A DNA stretch of 42,645 nt, taken from assembly GCA_949289215.1 (NCBI GenBank), contig CASENC010000050.1:1-42645 (forward strand). Direction: 5' to 3'. Below the pieces are notes generated by a model, which saw only the letters and a program-made list of their open reading frames with translations, ran no database searches and was not told the origin of the DNA. Shown here piece after piece: positions 5,158 to 22,124 of the stretch. Origin of the DNA: an uncultured Bacteroidales bacterium. Its GTDB lineage: Bacteria; Bacteroidota; Bacteroidia; Bacteroidales; Muribaculaceae. The position numbers and the translations under genes were made by a program. How positions within the stretch are numbered: position 1 is the first letter of the stretch; every line of letters begins with the position of its first letter.

Positions 5158-6030
5158 TCAAAATGGCAAATCATAACTCGGAATATTTTCTTCCCGAAGA
5201 AATGTTGAACCTGCATTCTCTAAAACAGCAATATCATAAATCTTTTTACGATATAAATCAAAATTTGATATTTGTTCTATTTCTTTTTTACGATTTTGAC
5301 TAAGAATAAGGAATTCTTCTTCTTTGTCTATTCCTAAAAAGCGTCTTCCAAGAAGATTAGCAGCAATTCCGGTAGTACTACTTCCTGTAAATGGATCAAG
5401 AATCCATGCTCCACGGTTGGTCGATGCCAGAATAATACGGGACAATACCGACAAAGGTTTTTGTGTTGGATGTTTTCCACATGATTTTTCCCACCGCGCA
5501 ATAGCCGGCAAACGCCATACATCTGTCATTTGTTTGCCTTCATTGATTTGCTTCATTATATCATAATTATAGCAATGCGGAACTTTAGCCGATTTACGTG
5601 CCCATATGATAAACTCGGTTGAATAAGTAAAATAACGACGTGAAATATTTGGTGGAGGATTAGTCTTTACCCATGTCACAACATTCAAGATTTTAAAACA
5701 AAGTTCTGTCAAAATATTAGCAATAGAAAAAATATTATGATATGTTCCACTTATCCAAATAGTTCCGTTCTCCTTTAATTTACTGCGACATTCTTTTATC
5801 CATGCCATATTAAAAGAATTCACATATTCCAAAGTGCCGCCTTTATCCCATTCACCTTTATCCACACAAACAATTTTTCCATTTTGCATACTTATCCCAC
5901 CGTTACTTAAAAAATATGGAGGGTCGGCAAATATCATATCAAACTTAAAATCAAACTGCTTCAACAATTTGATACAATCTCCATGAAGAAGAGTAAAGGC
6001 ACGATCAATGGATTTAAAATAAGCAATCAT
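5158..6030 (-). CDS. DpnA/MboC-type DNA adenine methyltransferase (second GATC methylase)
   Basis: A 290-residue methyltransferase with catalytic DPPY (36-39, FADPPYFLS) ahead of the AdoMet motif DPFTGSSTTG (212-221) and KHPTQKP (~187). This motif order makes it a beta-class enzyme like M2.DpnII (DpnA) and M.MboIC. Such enzymes methylate adenine in GATC and can act on single-stranded or unmethylated DNA, protecting incoming or replicating DNA. It starts 2 bases after the endonuclease stop and is last in a three-gene operon. The DNA is much more A+T-rich than the flanks, as expected for an acquired cassette. Confidence 0.88.
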   Translation of the reverse strand: MIAYFKSIDRAFTLLHGDCIKLLKQFDFKFDMIFADPPYFLSNGGISMQNGKIVCVDKGEWDKGGTLEYVNSFNMAWIKECRSKLKENGTIWISGTYHNIFSIANILTELCFKILNVVTWVKTNPPPNISRRYFTYSTEFIIWARKSAKVPHCYNYDIMKQINEGKQMTDVWRLPAIARWEKSCGKHPTQKPLSVLSRIILASTNRGAWILDPFTGSSTTGIAANLLGRRFLGIDKEEEFLILSQNRKKEIEQISNFDLYRKKIYDIAVLENAGSTFLREENIPSYDLPF

Positions 6031-6032
6031 TC

Positions 6033-6893
6033 TTAAACCATTATTTTATTAATAATGCCATTTTCCAAATCGTTAATATTATAGATATGCTCAAGTACAT
6101 CAAAAGTTTCTTCCAAATTATTACGGGCACTGTTCCATCCTTGACCATCAGTAAACCAAACAAACGTAAAATCCGTAAGATCTTTCGTTTCTAAAGTAAT
6201 AGTCTTATAACTTCGTGCTGTTTCATTTAATTTAGAACCGCTACTACCATAAAAATTTGTTTCTATGCCATATACCATAGATGGTGTTTTTACAACAAAA
6301 TCAAAACGTTTTTCTGTCTTCCCTTGATTTGAGATAGAAGATAGATCTATACTAAATTTATTTTCTATTTCATGAATATACATTTCTTTAAAATATGTAC
6401 TGTCTTTTTTAAATCCAGCTTTTTTAATAAACGCCTCAACAAGATTTTCCATCAAATGTCCACCCCTGTTTTTTCTTCCATTTGAATCTAATCCCGTTTC
6501 CACACCAGTAACATAATCAACAAGGCTTCCTATGATACGATTTTCAAGTAAATTAAAAATGCCTGTTTTACGCATAAAAACTTTATATTGCTCTATATCA
6601 TAATTCATTATTCTGAAATTATAACAAAAGCTTCCATCTTCATCCAAAACCTCAATATCCATTTCCCGTTTTGCAATTAAAATAGGAATACACTTCAGTA
6701 TATTTGGATAAGAAGTTACTAACTTATCAAATTCAATTTCAATGTTTTTACTACCAATAAGGGAATTCATGATATTCAATTCCACTTTAATAGAATCGAC
6801 ATTTGTAAAAACTTTACCAAAATCTATATAATATTGATAATCTGCAATGCTCTTACGAAATTGTGCAAGCCAGTTATTGAAATCTCTTTTCAT
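6033..6893 (-). CDS. DpnII/MboI-family type II restriction endonuclease (GATC)
   Basis: A 286-residue protein with the DpnII endonuclease pattern. The central GGHLMENLVEAFIKKAGF is conserved in the family. The likely PD-(D/E)xK core is KRFDFVV (Asp ~198) followed by YGIETNFYG (Glu ~211), with Asn where Lys usually stands; DpnII-like enzymes tolerate this. It should cut unmethylated GATC. It lies between two adenine methylases with 2-base gaps on each side, so all three are one transcript. No frameshift or stop is present, so the system looks intact. Confidence 0.9.
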   Translation of the reverse strand: MKRDFNNWLAQFRKSIADYQYYIDFGKVFTNVDSIKVELNIMNSLIGSKNIEIEFDKLVTSYPNILKCIPILIAKREMDIEVLDEDGSFCYNFRIMNYDIEQYKVFMRKTGIFNLLENRIIGSLVDYVTGVETGLDSNGRKNRGGHLMENLVEAFIKKAGFKKDSTYFKEMYIHEIENKFSIDLSSISNQGKTEKRFDFVVKTPSMVYGIETNFYGSSGSKLNETARSYKTITLETKDLTDFTFVWFTDGQGWNSARNNLEETFDVLEHIYNINDLENGIINKIMV

Positions 6894-6895
6894 AA

Positions 6896-7810
6896 TTACT
6901 TATTATATTCTGTAATATTGGAAATCATCAATTCTGATAATTTACCTCTTTTACTTGAATTGGCATTAACCATTCGTGTTGCCATGACCCGTTTAATGGT
7001 ATATGCTTTATATATGTCATCAAAAAAATTATTATTCTTATCATTACCCTTTACATCTGAATTGCTCAGAATAAAATGAGCTTTACATACCGATATTTCA
7101 TGACAAAAATCTCGCAATCTTATTTGTTCGCTATCATCAAATTCCTCTTTCGCATATGAATTAAACGATGAAGTTTTACTTAATGGTTTATATGGTGGAT
7201 CAAAATAAAACAAAGCGTTTGGAGTAGCATAAATAATTGTTTCTGAAAAATCACCACATAATATTTCAACTTTCTGTAAAATCTTAGAATCAGCCAAAAT
7301 AGTATCTTTATCACAAATCTTAGGATTGGCATATCTACCATGAGGAACATTAAATTTCCCCTTAGAATTCACCCTATACAAGCCATTAAAACATGTCCTG
7401 TTTAAAAAAATGAATAAAGCAGCCACTTCTACATCTGACAAAGATGATAAATTATATATATCACGTTTTTTTAAATAATAATTTTTTCTGCCCACTTCAT
7501 CTAAAGGAATATATTCATTTTGAATAGTTTCCAATTGCGCAATTAGTTTATCAGGTTGATATTTAATAACTTTATATGTAGTTATCAAATGAGGATTGAT
7601 ATCATTAATTACTGCTTTTTTTATATTAGGAAATTGTTGCAATATCCAAAATAAAACAGCACCACCTCCAACAAAAGGTTCTACATAGAGAATATCTTCA
7701 TTTTGCAACAAATCCGATGGTAAAGAACGCTTTATATCTTTCAAAAGCTGCGTCTTTCCACCAACCCATTTCACAAAAGGTTTTGCTAACATCAATATTG
7801 TGTCGTTCAT
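6896..7810 (-). CDS. Dam-family DNA adenine methyltransferase (DpnM/MboA type)
   Basis: A 304-residue alpha-class N6-adenine methylase. It starts with the FVKWVGGKTQLL signature, has AdoMet motif EPFVGGG (44-50), and DPPY at 204-207 with FYFDPPYKPLS. The intervening FLNRTCFNGLYRVNSKG is typical of Dam/DpnM target recognition, so the substrate is GATC. It is first in the operon, so host DNA is protected before the nuclease is made. The start at 7810 is chosen because a TATCTTTG promoter box lies 25 bases upstream; the inner Met at residue 7 is possible. Confidence 0.92.
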   Translation of the reverse strand: MNDTILMLAKPFVKWVGGKTQLLKDIKRSLPSDLLQNEDILYVEPFVGGGAVLFWILQQFPNIKKAVINDINPHLITTYKVIKYQPDKLIAQLETIQNEYIPLDEVGRKNYYLKKRDIYNLSSLSDVEVAALFIFLNRTCFNGLYRVNSKGKFNVPHGRYANPKICDKDTILADSKILQKVEILCGDFSETIIYATPNALFYFDPPYKPLSKTSSFNSYAKEEFDDSEQIRLRDFCHEISVCKAHFILSNSDVKGNDKNNNFFDDIYKAYTIKRVMATRMVNANSSKRGKLSELMISNITEYNK

Positions 7811-17035: not shown

Positions 17036-19807
17036 TTATATTACAATGTTAACAATTTTCCCCGGAACCACTATTATTTTCTTCGGAGTTTTCCCGGCCA
17101 CCCATTTTTCGGCTCCGGGAGCCGAAAGAGCCGCTTTTTCGACATCTTCTTTCGATGTATCGGCTGCAACTTCTATGCTGTAACGTGTTTTACCATTAAA
17201 CGAAACAGCATATTTGACAGTGTTCTCAACCAAATATTTTTCATCGAATTGCGGCCAACTTGCATCACATACCGAACCTTCTTGACCGAGTGCGTGCCAC
17301 AACTCTTCACATATATGAGGTGCAAAAGGTGCAAGCACAACCACAAGATCACGATAAACAGCCTTGGCCACGCACTTCATGGCGTTGAGTTCATTGACGC
17401 ATATCATGAACGCGCTAACCGATGTATTATAAGAGAAGTGTTCTATGTCAAAAGTAACTTTCTTGATAAGCTTATGCAACGATTTCATGGCTTCGGCCGA
17501 TGGTTCTTCATCGGTAAGTTGCAATTCATCGCCTTTATAGAAAAGCGACCACAAGCGTTTCAAGAAACGATGCACACCATCTATGCCATTGGTATCCCAC
17601 GGCTTGCTTTGTTCGATTGGGCCAAGGAACATTTCATACAAGCGTAAAGTATCGGCACCGTAACGCTCAACCACATCGTCGGGATTAACCACATTAAACA
17701 TCGACTTCGACATTTTCTCAATGGCATATCCACACACATATTTTTCATTTTCAAGTATAAACTCGGCATTGGCAAATTCAGGACGCCATGCCTTGAATTT
17801 TTCCAAATCGAGAATATCGTTATTGACAATGTTGACATCTACATGAATAGGTGTTACATCATATTCCTTGCGCAAGTTGTAAGATACAAATGTATTAGTG
17901 TCTTTTATGCGATACACAAAATTAGAACGGCCTTGTATCATACCCTGGTTGATGAGTTTCTTGAACGGTTCAGGTTCACACACATAACCAAGGTCATAAA
18001 GGAACTTGTTCCAAAAACGGCTGTAAATCAAGTGCCCGGTAGCGTGTTCCGTGCCACCTACATACAAATCCACGTTTCTCCAATACTCATCGGTTTGTTT
18101 CGACACAAGAGCCTCGTCATTATGCGGGTCCATATAGCGCAAGTAGTAAGCCGACGAACCTGCAAATCCGGGCATTGTGCATAATTCAAGTGGACGGCCA
18201 TTCTTTGCCACCCAATTCTTTGCACGGCCAAGTGGCGGCTCGCCTGTCTCGGTAGGCAGAAACTTGTCAACCTCGGGCAATTCAAGCGGCAATTCGCTTT
18301 CATCGAGCACGTGCGGCATATTATTCTCATCATAATATACCGGGAACGGTTCACCCCAATAACGTTGGCGGCTGAAAATGGCATCGCGCAAGCGATAGTT
18401 CACTTTCACTTTGCCTATTCCGGCCTCTTCTATATATTTTTTTGTCTTGGCAATGGCTTCCTTTACTTCAAGCCCGTCGAGCTGCAAATTCCCGTTCGAT
18501 GAGTTTACCATCCTGCCTTCCTTGGCATCGAAACTCTCTTCACTTACATCGGCCCCCTCGATAAGCGGAATTATGGGCAAATCAAAGTGCCGTGCAAAAG
18601 CATAGTCGCGACTGTCATGAGCAGGAACAGCCATGATAGCTCCCGTTCCGTAACCTGCAAGCACATAATCGCTTATATATACAGGTATCTCTTTTCCGGT
18701 AACCGGATTAATGGCATAACTGCCACTGAATACACCCGAAACCTGCTTGTCGATGAGACGTTCGCGCTCGGTCTTGTGCTTCACTTCATCTATATATTTA
18801 TCAACTGCGGCACGCCGGTCTTCGGTGACAAGCATATCCACATATTCGCTTTCGGGGGCAAGTACCATAAATGTAACACCAAATATGGTATCGGCACGAG
18901 TTGTAAATATTTCAAGTTCTATGTCGCTGCCGGCAACCTTGAATTTCATTTCGGCACCTTCCGAACGGCCTATCCAGTTGCGTTGTGTTTCTTTTAGCGA
19001 GTCGGTCCAGTCAATGGTATCAAGTCCGTCGAGCAAACGTTGTGCATAAGCCGACACACGCAGACACCACTGCCGCATCATCTTTTGTTCAACAGGATAA
19101 CCGCCGCGTATCGACACCCCCTCGCTCACCTCGTCGTTGGCAAGCACGGTGCCGAGTTTAGGACACCAGTTCACCATGGTATTGCCAAGGTATGCAATTC
19201 GGTAATTCATCAATACTGTTTCCTTTTCATATTCGCTCTTGGCATTCCATTCATCGGCTGTAAACGACATTTCTTCGCCACAAGCAGCATTTACACCATC
19301 GGTACCTGCTGTTGAAAACTTGTCAATAAGGTTGGCTATAGGACAAGCCTTCTGCAAATCGTTATCATAATAGCTGTTGAACATCTTAATAAAAGCCCAT
19401 TGCGTCCACTTGTAATAGGCTGGATCACAAGTGCGTATTTCACGATCCCAGTCATAGCAGAAACCTATTTTATCGAGCTGTTCACGGTAACGATTAATGT
19501 TTTTAACCGTTGTCACTTCGGGATGCTGCCCCGTCTGTATGGCATATTGCTCGGCAGGCAAGCCGTAAGCATCATACCCCATGGGATGAAGCACATTAAA
19601 GCCCTGCAAACGCTTGTAACGCGAATATATGTCAGAAGCTATGTACCCCAACGGGTGCCCCACATGAAGTCCTGCCCCCGAAGGGTAAGGGAACATATCG
19701 AGTACATAGAACTTCGGCCTCGTATTATCTATTTCGGTCTTGTAAGTGTTATGAGATTTCCAATACTGTTGCCAGCGTTGTTCTATTTCTTTGAAATTAT
19801 ATTCCAT
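17036..19807 (-). CDS. leuS: Leucyl-tRNA synthetase
   Basis: A 923-residue class I aminoacyl-tRNA synthetase that charges leucine to tRNA-Leu. HIGH is HVGH (48-51) inside [20 protein letters not shown] is EKMSKSMFN (698-702). The CP1 editing domain is present: [17 protein letters not shown] and [15 protein letters not shown], which has the conserved editing Asp. Length is normal for the bacterial enzyme, with an ordinary C-terminal domain. It follows nadA by 22 bases, so the two are co-transcribed leftward. No T-box or leader peptide is seen. Confidence 0.97.
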
Positions 19808-19829: not shown

Positions 19830-20798
19830 TTATTTCGACAATTCAAGCATTCTTTTTATAGGCCTTACGGCTTTTTCGGCCACTTCAGGATCTACTTCAA
19901 CAAGCGGCATTTCATATTTGAGTGAATTATACAGCTTCTCAAGTGTAACTTTCTTCATGTCGGCACACTCGTTACAATTGCACGAACCATCTTCAGGAGG
20001 AACCGGAATGAATTTCTTTTCCGGGCATTTTTTCATCATTTCGTGCAATATTCCACTCTCGGTTGCCACAATGAATGTATCACATTCGCTGTTTACGGCA
20101 TAATCAAGCAATACCTTGGTCGAACCGACCTTGTCGGCGGCTTCTTGTACCTGTCGGCGACATTCGGGATGTACAAGTACCTTGGCACCCGGATACTGCT
20201 CCTTGAGAGCATTTATTTTTTCAATTGAGAATTGTTCATGCACATGGCAGGCACCATCCCACAGCAGCATATCGCGTCCCGATTGAACATTGATGTAATG
20301 TCCCAAATTACGGTCGGGGCCGAAAATAATCTTTGCATCGCCGGGCAGGCTGTCGATAATCTTTCGAGCGTTGCCGCTTGTCACCACAATGTCGGTAACG
20401 GCTTTCACAGCAGCTGTGGTGTTGACATAACTTACAACGGTGTGACCCGGATGAGTTTTGACAAATTTTTCAAACTCATCGGCAGGGCAACTGTCGGCAA
20501 GGCTGCAACCGGCACTCATGTCAGGAACAATTACTTTCTTTCCGGGGCATAAAATCTTGGCAGTCTCGCCCATGAATTGAACACCACACATCACTATAAT
20601 GTCAGCCCGGCTGTCGGCGGCAATTTGAGCAAGCGCAAGGCTGTCGCCAATAAAGTCGGCTATATCCTGGATTTCGGGACGCTGGTAATAGTGAGCAAGA
20701 ATAATGGCGTTCTTTTCCTGTTTCAAACGCACAATTTCTTTCTTGAGGTCTATACCTTCCTCTATAGGAGCATCGACATAACCGTTGTCAACATTCAT
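19830..20798 (-). CDS. nadA: Quinolinate synthase
   Basis: A 322-residue 4Fe-4S enzyme that condenses iminoaspartate with dihydroxyacetone phosphate to quinolinate in NAD synthesis. Landmarks are ILAHYYQRPEIQDIADFIGDS, MCGVQFMGETAKIL, DMSAGCSLADSCP (Cys ~98), DGACHVHEQF (Cys ~184) and DGSCNCNECADMK (Cys ~273-278). By family comparison the cluster ligands are probably one Cys from each of the last three motifs. nadB and nadC are not nearby. Its promoter lies inside the candidate origin, about 200 bases upstream. Confidence 0.96.
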   Translation of the reverse strand: MNVDNGYVDAPIEEGIDLKKEIVRLKQEKNAIILAHYYQRPEIQDIADFIGDSLALAQIAADSRADIIVMCGVQFMGETAKILCPGKKVIVPDMSAGCSLADSCPADEFEKFVKTHPGHTVVSYVNTTAAVKAVTDIVVTSGNARKIIDSLPGDAKIIFGPDRNLGHYINVQSGRDMLLWDGACHVHEQFSIEKINALKEQYPGAKVLVHPECRRQVQEAADKVGSTKVLLDYAVNSECDTFIVATESGILHEMMKKCPEKKFIPVPPEDGSCNCNECADMKKVTLEKLYNSLKYEMPLVEVDPEVAEKAVRPIKRMLELSK

Positions 20799-20920
20799 AA
20801 TTATATATTTTTCTTTTTTTATTTTTTAAAATCTTCTTTTATGATTATGCTTATTGAGTGTCAATAGTGAAAGTAATTTTCATGAATTATACTTGCATAA
20901 CAAGTTATTAATATAATATT

Positions 20921-20988
20921 TCAACCGATTAATATGTTATGCACAACTTTGCAGGCTACTGTTCAACCGATTAAGCATTTTATGAACA
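20921..20988 (+). repeat. Two direct repeats, each followed by a DnaA-box-like nonamer
   Basis: TCAACCGATTAA occurs exactly at 20921-20932 and 20963-20974. Each copy is followed after 4 or 5 bases by TTATGCACA or TTATGAACA. The copies start 42 bases apart, about four helical turns, which would place bound proteins on the same face. They look like binding sites within the candidate origin. Confidence 0.6.
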
Positions 20989-21004
20989 CTTTGTTAGTAT
21001 CGTG

Positions 21005-21012
21005 CAAAGTTA
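21005..21012 (-). promoter_or_regulatory. -7 box of nadA-leuS
   Basis: TAACTTTG on the minus strand, the only complete TAnnTTTG found leftward in this gap. It would give a leader of about 200 bases that crosses the two direct repeats. Confidence 0.4.
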
Positions 21013-21229
21013 ATAATTTTGTGAGTAAAATATATTAATAACCTGCCAAAATGCTTGGTGAAAACTGTGATATAACAAAACAATAACTCTTTTGGAACTA
21101 AGCCGTGAAGTGTGGCTTATACAAATTTGCGGAAATTGAAAATAAACTTGTTGATTTTTGCTTCCGCAGTTTTGATGGTTTTTCCACAAGTTTTTGTCAA
21201 GTATTTAATACGTAAAAAAATTCATTGTT

Positions 21230-21772
21230 ATGAAAAAGAAGACTATGATTGAATTGCATCGCATATCGTGTGAAGAATTTAAAAGTACAAATAAAATACC
21301 ACTTGTGGTAATACTTGATGATGTGCGCAGCCTGAATAACATTGGTTCGATTTTCCGCACAAGCGATGCTTTTGTGGTTGAGCGAATTATACTTTGTGGA
21401 ATTACGGCTACTCCACCCCACCCCGATATTCATAAAACTGCACTTGGTGCCGAAGATTCGGTTGAATGGACTTACTTTGAGTGTGTGACCGATGCAATTG
21501 AACAATTGCGGTCGGCCGGCTATGTGATTTGTTCCATTGAGCAAGTTAATGGCAGTGTGTCACTTAACGACTTTAAGGTAGAACCAGGCAAGCATTATGC
21601 CGTGATACTTGGCAATGAAGTGAAAGGTGTGAGTCAACAAGCTGTTGACATGAGTGATTATTGTATAGAAATTCCTCAATATGGTACCAAACATTCATTA
21701 AACGTGTCAATAACTGCCGGAATAGTGATATGGGACTTGTTTAATAAAATGATGTTATCAACAAAGTTTTAA
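21230..21772 (+). CDS. SpoU/TrmH-family RNA 2'-O-methyltransferase
   Basis: A 180-residue SPOUT-fold enzyme with the three family motifs: NNIGSIFRTSDAF (36-48), ILGNEVKGVS (126-135) and IEIPQYGTKHSLNVSITAGIVIW (~147-169). The knot in the last two binds AdoMet. It transfers methyl to a ribose 2'-OH of tRNA or rRNA. Which nucleotide cannot be told, since TrmH, RlmB and TrmL are close relatives and this one lacks the N-terminal RNA-binding extension. It stands between the two halves of the candidate origin, transcribed away from nadA. Confidence 0.92.
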   Translation: MKKKTMIELHRISCEEFKSTNKIPLVVILDDVRSLNNIGSIFRTSDAFVVERIILCGITATPPHPDIHKTALGAEDSVEWTYFECVTDAIEQLRSAGYVICSIEQVNGSVSLNDFKVEPGKHYAVILGNEVKGVSQQAVDMSDYCIEIPQYGTKHSLNVSITAGIVIWDLFNKMMLSTKF

Positions 21773-22124
21773 TCATTGTTCTCTGTATTAGTTATGTGAT
21801 TATTAATACATTATGATGTAATATATAAAATAATCCACATTAATTCACATTATGTTGAAAACACGGTTTTCAACAAGTGTCAGTAAGTGATAATAAAGTT
21901 GTAAAGAGATAAAAAACACAAATACCTGTCGGTTTATACAGTTATCAACATATTTATCAACTTGTTATTAACATGTTAATTAGCTGTACAACAATTATAT
22001 GTAGAATTATATCAATTAGTAATCAACAATAAGTAGAAAACTAATATCAACAATATGTTGATATTTTAATATGCTATAAATCAGCTTATTGAACGAATGA
22101 TTTTACAATAATATATTTTTTTCT

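Follow-up and report, generated by a model that had tools for sequence, protein, structure and literature searches.

Bacteroidota rank with the most common bacteria of the gut, and the position of the replication origin is needed for coverage-based growth estimates, for the rotation of assemblies and for origin plasmids. Prevotella intermedia belongs to the order Bacteroidales. In Helicobacter pylori and Bacillus subtilis oriC is bipartite, with two clusters of DnaA boxes that are separated by dnaA. For the Bacteroidetes, origins away from dnaA have already been published, according to the available parts of two papers (PMC4755523, PMC10197239). In the OMM12 gut bacteria, which include Muribaculum intestinale and Bacteroides caecimuris, ori was assigned by GC skew and parS; as far as the available text goes, read coverage is said to support these positions, which do not always coincide with dnaA (PMC10197239). 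The chromosome of Porphyromonas gingivalis is drawn with oriC at dnaA in the available part of another publication (PMC5771137).

Here we analysed a stretch of 42,645 nucleotides (the window), which is the complete contig C50 of a Muribaculaceae-like genome of 2.58 Mb in 52 contigs; the closest named relatives of this genome are mainly uncultured Muribaculaceae. As judged from its sequence and that of its relatives, the window very probably carries a chromosomal replication origin in one or the other of two gaps next to nadA and trmH.

Results

DnaA-box-like sites cluster in two gaps around trmH

Two AT-rich gaps border trmH, the nadA-trmH gap of 431 bp and a second gap from 21773 to about 22153 (Table 1). 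The dnaA gene of the genome is located on a different contig (C7) and encodes a full-length DnaA, with matches to PF11638, PF00308 and PF08299. No skew switch was found in the 20 kb around this dnaA, all four 5-kb parts being negative, and the locus described here is not of the rpmH-dnaA-dnaN type, in which the origin is next to dnaA. Elsewhere in the window, about 13 kb from the candidate origin, an AT-rich block with odd skew (5158-7810) encodes a DpnII-type restriction enzyme and two DNA methylases; this block looks acquired.

Table 1. Coordinates of genes and candidate origin elements in the window
Feature	Position	Strand	Remarks
leuS	17036-19807	-	left of nadA
nadA	19830..20798	-	PF02445, E 6e-124; apparently conserved origin neighbour
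Candidate unwinding element	20797..20846		T-rich on +, beside nadA start; predicted least stable 50-mer of the 42,645 bases
nadA-trmH gap	20799..21229		best candidate for oriC proper: DnaA boxes and unstable DNA
DnaA-box-like TTATGCACA	20937..20945	+	+139 from nadA
DnaA-box-like TTATGAACA	20980..20988	+	+182 from nadA
Overlapping promoter-like -7 elements	21005..21021		nadA TAACTTTG (-), trmH TAATTTTG (+)
DnaA-box-like TTTTCCACA	21180..21188	+	+382 from nadA
trmH	21230..21772	+	SpoU-type methylase, called trmH here; PF00588, E 1e-32
Second, denser box cluster	21755..22064		trmH end and beyond; ten sites with at most one mismatch from TTATCAACA or TTATCCACA
Second least stable 50-mer of the window	21785..21834		predicted stability
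AraC-type regulator	from about 22154	+	right of trmH

An earlier note on this DNA had placed a candidate origin around trmH on the grounds of clustered DnaA-box-like nonamers and a switch in base skew. The nonamers are found at the positions it gave: TTATGCACA at 20937, TTTTCCACA at 21180, and TTATCAACA, TTATCAACT and TTATTAACA in a row at 21942-21973. Together the two gaps (about 780 bp) hold 12 of the 64 window sites with no more than one mismatch from TTATCAACA or TTATCCACA, an enrichment of about 12-fold; such clustering of boxes in AT-rich DNA outside genes is one of the features by which an oriC is recognised. Taken separately, the upstream gap is weakly enriched (3 sites, shuffle P 0.02) and shows no enrichment over shuffles with a relaxed motif (P 0.14), while the downstream gap is strongly enriched (4 sites, P 0.003; 8 sites with the relaxed motif, 0 of 2000 shuffles). 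The AACA of TTATGAACA in the upstream gap is invariant across 9 aligned same-genus sequences.

The density of TTWTNMACA per 500 bp peaks, within the window, in the stretch from 21751/21755 (6 sites), against a maximum of 4 in 15 other stretches of the same genome (258 kb). Per base, two other gaps of the genome have a similar or higher density of strict boxes (one on C47 before parA and one on C8 before a ThiF gene). Since the strict-box density is equalled there, density alone does not make the locus unique. Relaxed boxes number 6-10 in the first 500 bp after trmH, both in the window and in 7 of 8 loci from the same genus; L008 (genome G218) has 1, and its cluster, still dense, follows about 2.4 kb further on, with two genes intervening between it and trmH.

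The skew switch is seen on both gene strands

All eight hand counts of 60-base lines on which the skew switch had been based proved exact, and the argument drawn from them, that a switch on one gene strand cannot come from gene direction alone, applies to minus-strand and plus-strand genes alike. For the minus genes, 9 to the left and 10 to the right of the site, both GC3 and TA3 differed between the sides (p 0.0005 each); for the plus genes (8 left, 6 right) the difference was significant at p 0.045 for GC3 and p 0.003 for TA3. Lines with more G than C made up 36 of 176 on the left and 90 of 188 on the right in minus genes, and 44 of 116 and 85 of 118, respectively, in plus genes. The third-position skew of trmH is like that of plus-strand genes to the right of the site, and trmH is read here as the first gene of the right replichore. 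In the window, raw cumulative GC skew reaches its minimum at 20836, which lies in the nadA-trmH gap; after gene correction the minimum is at 20280, a position within nadA. The locus is accordingly positioned at a switch between leading and lagging skew, which relatives extend to distances beyond the contig.

Boxes recur at fixed distances upstream of nadA

The earlier note had proposed nadA and trmH together as an origin landmark. This held for nadA and not for trmH, which was next to nadA in only 33 of 66 trmH loci (mostly best-scoring matches, window included, and not a random draw). At least 4 boxes were present within 700 bp of trmH in 31 of the 33 loci where nadA adjoins, and in just 4 of the 33 where it does not. 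Moreover, the parS-like site of G188, G378 and G170 is located 10-14 kb from nadA and more than 500 kb from trmH, and trmH lies away from the origin in several other genera; trmH was rejected as a landmark on these grounds. The pooled GC3 of trmH differs with nadA adjacency (p 0.0001), and its pooled TA3 does not (p 0.18). The pooled TA3 of nadA was dropped as a side test, since nadA is mostly negative outside the order too.

In addition, 27 nadA loci were taken from 30 genomes, 3 of which gave no nadA match; these genomes had been chosen for a trmH without adjoining nadA, for a trmH that had not been looked at, or for a near-complete assembly. In 19 of the 27 at least 3 boxes occur in the 700 bp upstream of nadA, often at the same distances, while G120, G015, G074 and G047 have no box within these 700 bp. 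A set of 60 loci was assembled from 34 trmH loci and 26 of the 27 nadA loci, the rest having no nadA match or less than 450 bp upstream. Their upstream 460 bp contain 185 boxes, against 28 in shuffles (highest 44). Box positions recur: +180-199 is occupied in 36 of the 60 loci, +380-399 in 29, +120-139 in 13 and +140-159 in 11, and the window boxes at +139, +182 and +382 coincide with these recurrent positions. An unbiased count of nonamers upstream of nadA also returned TTATCAACA, in 31 loci against 0.9.

Among genomes of the class outside the order, 14 of 28 have at least 2 boxes upstream of nadA. For 20 such loci, hand-picked from 50 matches outside the order (the best 19 new ones, plus the one-contig genome G524), at least 2 boxes were present in the upstream 460 bp of 12, with 66 boxes in total against 9.6 in shuffles; 30 of these 66 come from two genomes of one genus (14 and 16 boxes, with eight TTATCCACA each). 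At the level of the phylum, 29 nadA loci gave 13 upstream boxes, compared to a shuffle mean of 5.9 and maximum of 14. Two of the 8 class loci in this set (L260 and L261, genomes G404 and G435) have several boxes, and none of the 21 loci of other classes has more than one upstream of nadA.

Predicted unstable DNA and promoter-like elements adjoin the boxes

In 39 of the 60 loci, the 50-mer with the lowest predicted stability in the upstream 460 bp has its centre at most 40 bp from nadA. As far as predicted stability goes, unstable DNA (DUE) thus adjoins the boxes, as is expected of an oriC. DnaA-trio-like runs are found in the T-rich element with modest enrichment (36 of 60 loci, shuffle mean 21, maximum 31), and no fixed distance between box and trio was apparent in the 60 loci. 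The sequences TAACTTTG and TAATTTTG in the nadA-trmH gap are called promoter-like by the -7 element consensus, TAnnTTTG. GCAAAGTTA is present in 34 of the 60 nadA upstream regions, where 0.56 would be expected. A search for an RNA element in the nadA leader gave nothing above chance.

In relatives the skew switches at nadA over long distances

Because the window's own genome is in 52 contigs that cannot be ordered, long-range skew was followed in relatives. A skew minimum far from the locus had been named as an outcome that would speak against an origin; instead, the switch is at nadA-trmH in G218, G307 and G145, and at nadA in the one-contig chromosome of G188. In G218, which belongs to the same genus, the eleven stretches to the right of trmH on a 250-kb contig, which cover 218 kb, are positive without exception, and skew is negative in the 21 kb to the left. 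In G307, also of the same genus, the six stretches sampled on the left (from within the contig's first 160 kb) and the adjacent 10 kb are negative, and the 21 kb on the right are positive. G145 represents another family and has trmH at 1.013 Mb of a 1.38-Mb contig. Left of it, between 10 kb and 1.0 Mb of the contig, raw skew is negative in 9 of 11 samples, the other two being negative at third positions on both strands; to the right, raw skew is positive in 8 of 8 samples, as are 15 of 16 strand-specific GC3 values. The change is located in the 20-kb stretch that contains nadA-trmH.

The widest test was provided by G188, a chromosome of the order with 4.81 Mb in one contig, from which 20 samples of 20 kb were taken. 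Raw skew is negative in 12 of 12 samples left of nadA and positive in 8 of 8 right of it, and its sign changes from one stretch to the directly adjoining one, the border between the two being inside nadA (2481834-2482787). Intergenic skew agrees with raw skew in 16 of the 20 samples: on the left 9 are negative, 2 about zero and 1 positive, and on the right 7 of 8 are positive. Third-position values taken by strand vary more than raw skew does. In this chromosome dnaA starts at base 412, on the far side from the switch, and trmH is 545 kb from nadA.

Three further genomes were sampled. Samples of the one-contig genome G287 place the switch in the interval 1.35-1.495 Mb, where nadA is at 1.380 Mb and parS at 1.420 Mb; three samples, at 0.67, 1.66 and 2.65 Mb, are discordant. 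Across the 8-kb flanks of nadA in G378, skew goes from -0.04 to +0.04. G367 has no nadA match and carries parS at 1.738 Mb; in its samples, raw skew becomes positive somewhere from 1.805 to 1.95 Mb, and strand-separated GC3 scarcely changes along the chromosome. Sampled skew and parS did not locate the origin of G367.

Divergent gene pairs pull raw skew minima to the gaps between them, and it is with this limit that the raw cumulative minimum was found in the nadA-trmH gap of all 6 same-genus loci run (a seventh, L006, was excluded, its contig starting 1.9 kb upstream of trmH). The gap also contains the raw minimum of G218 (240 kb of the contig on which L008 lies) and that of G307 (32 kb). The raw minimum is 5.5 kb off the gap in G145, 500 bp inside nadA in G188 and, in L010, where nadA is absent and a single box adjoins trmH, at the end of the locus. 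Once gene strand and codon position are corrected for, the gap contains the minimum of L003, L004, L007, G145 and the first 60 kb of G218. Distances of 0.5-3.5 kb from the gap were obtained for the window, L002, L005, L008 and G307; the corrected minimum of G188 is 5 kb off, and that of G218 is 44 kb off if 240 kb are analysed.

parS-like sites lie near nadA

A parS-like pattern was matched in 14 of 14 genomes, at one place per genome and, in G307, at a second on another contig; a reversed control of the pattern also matched, in 5 of the 14. Three of these genomes have parS and nadA on different contigs (the window's genome, G239 and G333), and G367 lacks nadA. Among the 10 genomes with both on one contig, the parS-like site is 10-89 kb from nadA in 9 (G252, G378, G325, G287, G170, G188, G145, G218 and G307), the exception being G120 with 171 kb. 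Both nadA and trmH have parS within 90 kb in G287 and G252. Proximity of parS to the candidate origin is thus an observation from relatives.

Box arrays elsewhere in the genomes

Dense boxes as sole proof of an origin were rejected, as arrays in G378 and in G120 (2.9886 Mb) come without a skew switch. The first, G378:C1:1429268-1429694 (L196:9268-9694), has 13 boxes, many about 22 bp apart, and adjoins tRNA-Met and an S24-type repressor gene; it resembles a DnaA titration site. The second, G120:C1:2988628-2988739 (L197:9628-9739), consists of five tandem TTATNAACA boxes at the start of a gene.

A different cluster in the latter genome, G120:C1:1652363-1652889 (L250:3363-3889), has nine boxes in about 530 bp; it is 20 kb from parS, the skew rises there, and the box-free nadA is 190 kb off. 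This is likely a relocated origin.

A box pair with an 11-bp spacer, TTATYAACA-N11-TTATCAACA, was observed at G000:C47:13449-13477 (L191:7449-7477) and in 7 of 12 genomes searched. It precedes a chromosomal parA-type gene in 4 of 4 cases checked (G000, G287, G378 and G120), and control of segregation genes by DnaA is possible. Finally, a ThiF-family gene is preceded by a gap of 257 bp that holds three box-like sites (G000:C8:8350-8460, L188).

Discussion

The boxes of the window, its skew switch, the switch at nadA in relatives and the proximity of parS together support the origin reading of the earlier note. Within this reading, we consider it likely that the nadA-trmH gap is the starting point, oriC proper; it is placed there because the least stable 50-mer of the window lies in this gap and because the raw minimum of G218 stays there. 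The same spot next to nadA appears to be the start point in many relatives, at a distance from dnaA, the gene by which origins are usually located. By all signs initiation would be of the ordinary DnaA type: DnaA, encoded on C7, would bind the TTATNMACA-type boxes at +139, +182 and +382 from nadA, oligomerise and open the T-rich unstable DNA beside nadA, from where two forks would depart in opposite directions. Over time, the opposite fork directions would give the two sides their opposite base skews. Box clusters are present on either side of trmH, and the origin may be bipartite, with trmH in the middle; we propose that the second cluster, behind trmH, is an auxiliary DnaA-binding region.

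Among the alternatives, the one that fares best keeps the origin at this locus and has initiation occur in the denser cluster behind trmH (21755-22064), with the nadA gap as an accessory. Its box density is higher, and the second least stable 50-mer, at 21785, is found there. We nevertheless regard it as decidedly unlikely, since the third positions of trmH already resemble those of right-replichore genes, and since boxes occur upstream of nadA without trmH in other genera and families. In addition, the cluster of G218 is displaced by about 2.4 kb, yet its raw minimum (21149) and its 60-kb corrected minimum (21500) both point to the nadA gap.

An origin that starts in the nadA gap also accounts better for the data than two readings that assign the boxes another function, each of which we hold to be very improbable. 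The boxes could serve a transcription factor, be it a regulator of NAD genes or a different one, with the skew switch being the endpoint of an old inversion. They do overlap the nadA promoter region, and other box-rich gaps precede parA and ThiF genes; against this, the same switch is seen in several genera and families, parS is near, and the nine-box cluster of G120, 20 kb from parS, coincides with a rise in skew while nadA is elsewhere and box-free. The other reading, just as improbable, takes datA, a DnaA titration site, as its model and sees here a titration or regulatory site that is near the origin and not at it. Relatives do have box arrays without a skew switch (beside tRNA-Met in G378 and at 2.9886 Mb in G120), but these lack a switch in 20-kb stretches, whereas the nadA-trmH locus has one. 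An origin at dnaA, as in many other phyla, where this is the general rule, has next to no chance in view of the steady skew around the genome's own dnaA and of the G188 dnaA (base 412) lying opposite the skew switch. Among Bacteroidetes, oriC is commonly far from dnaA, according to the available part of one paper (PMC4755523).

With the start point placed beside nadA, several practical consequences follow. As G188 illustrates with dnaA on the opposite side, starting a chromosome at dnaA can be the wrong place, and nadA with boxes at fixed distances offers a cheap origin search in draft genomes. The notion of an oriC that keeps its place next to a metabolic gene throughout an order or class, while dnaA is located elsewhere, is also relevant to the way in which origins move. 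A broader proposal is that the origin upstream of nadA is ancestral to the class Bacteroidia, was kept while dnaA and most neighbours moved, fires within the divergent nadA/trmH promoter and is bipartite around trmH in this genus. We think this rather unlikely as a whole; if true, initiation could be linked to the supply of NAD by transcription of nadA, a gene of NAD synthesis, across the unwinding element.

Among the described systems that resemble the locus most is the predicted oriC of Prevotella intermedia OMA14, likewise a box cluster at a skew switch and not near dnaA; the difference is that no neighbouring gene is named in the available part of that paper (PMC4755523). The OMM12 origins differ in that no origin sequence, boxes or nadA landmark are given in the available text (PMC10197239). 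More generally, nadA is not named as an origin neighbour in the literature searched, which consisted mostly of partial publications, and DoriC may show it. With the basal unwinding system and its DnaA-trios the locus shares boxes near unstable DNA and trio-like runs in a T-rich element, and it differs in its modest trio enrichment and in showing no fixed box-trio spacing, as far as that system is described in the available part (PMC10721633). What would be new is the position of the origin beside nadA and the age of that position; the mechanism is by all signs ordinary. The arrangement is like the bipartite oriC of H. pylori and B. subtilis in having two clusters around a gene; here, the clusters are separated by trmH instead of dnaA, and in one relative (G218) the second of them has a displaced position.
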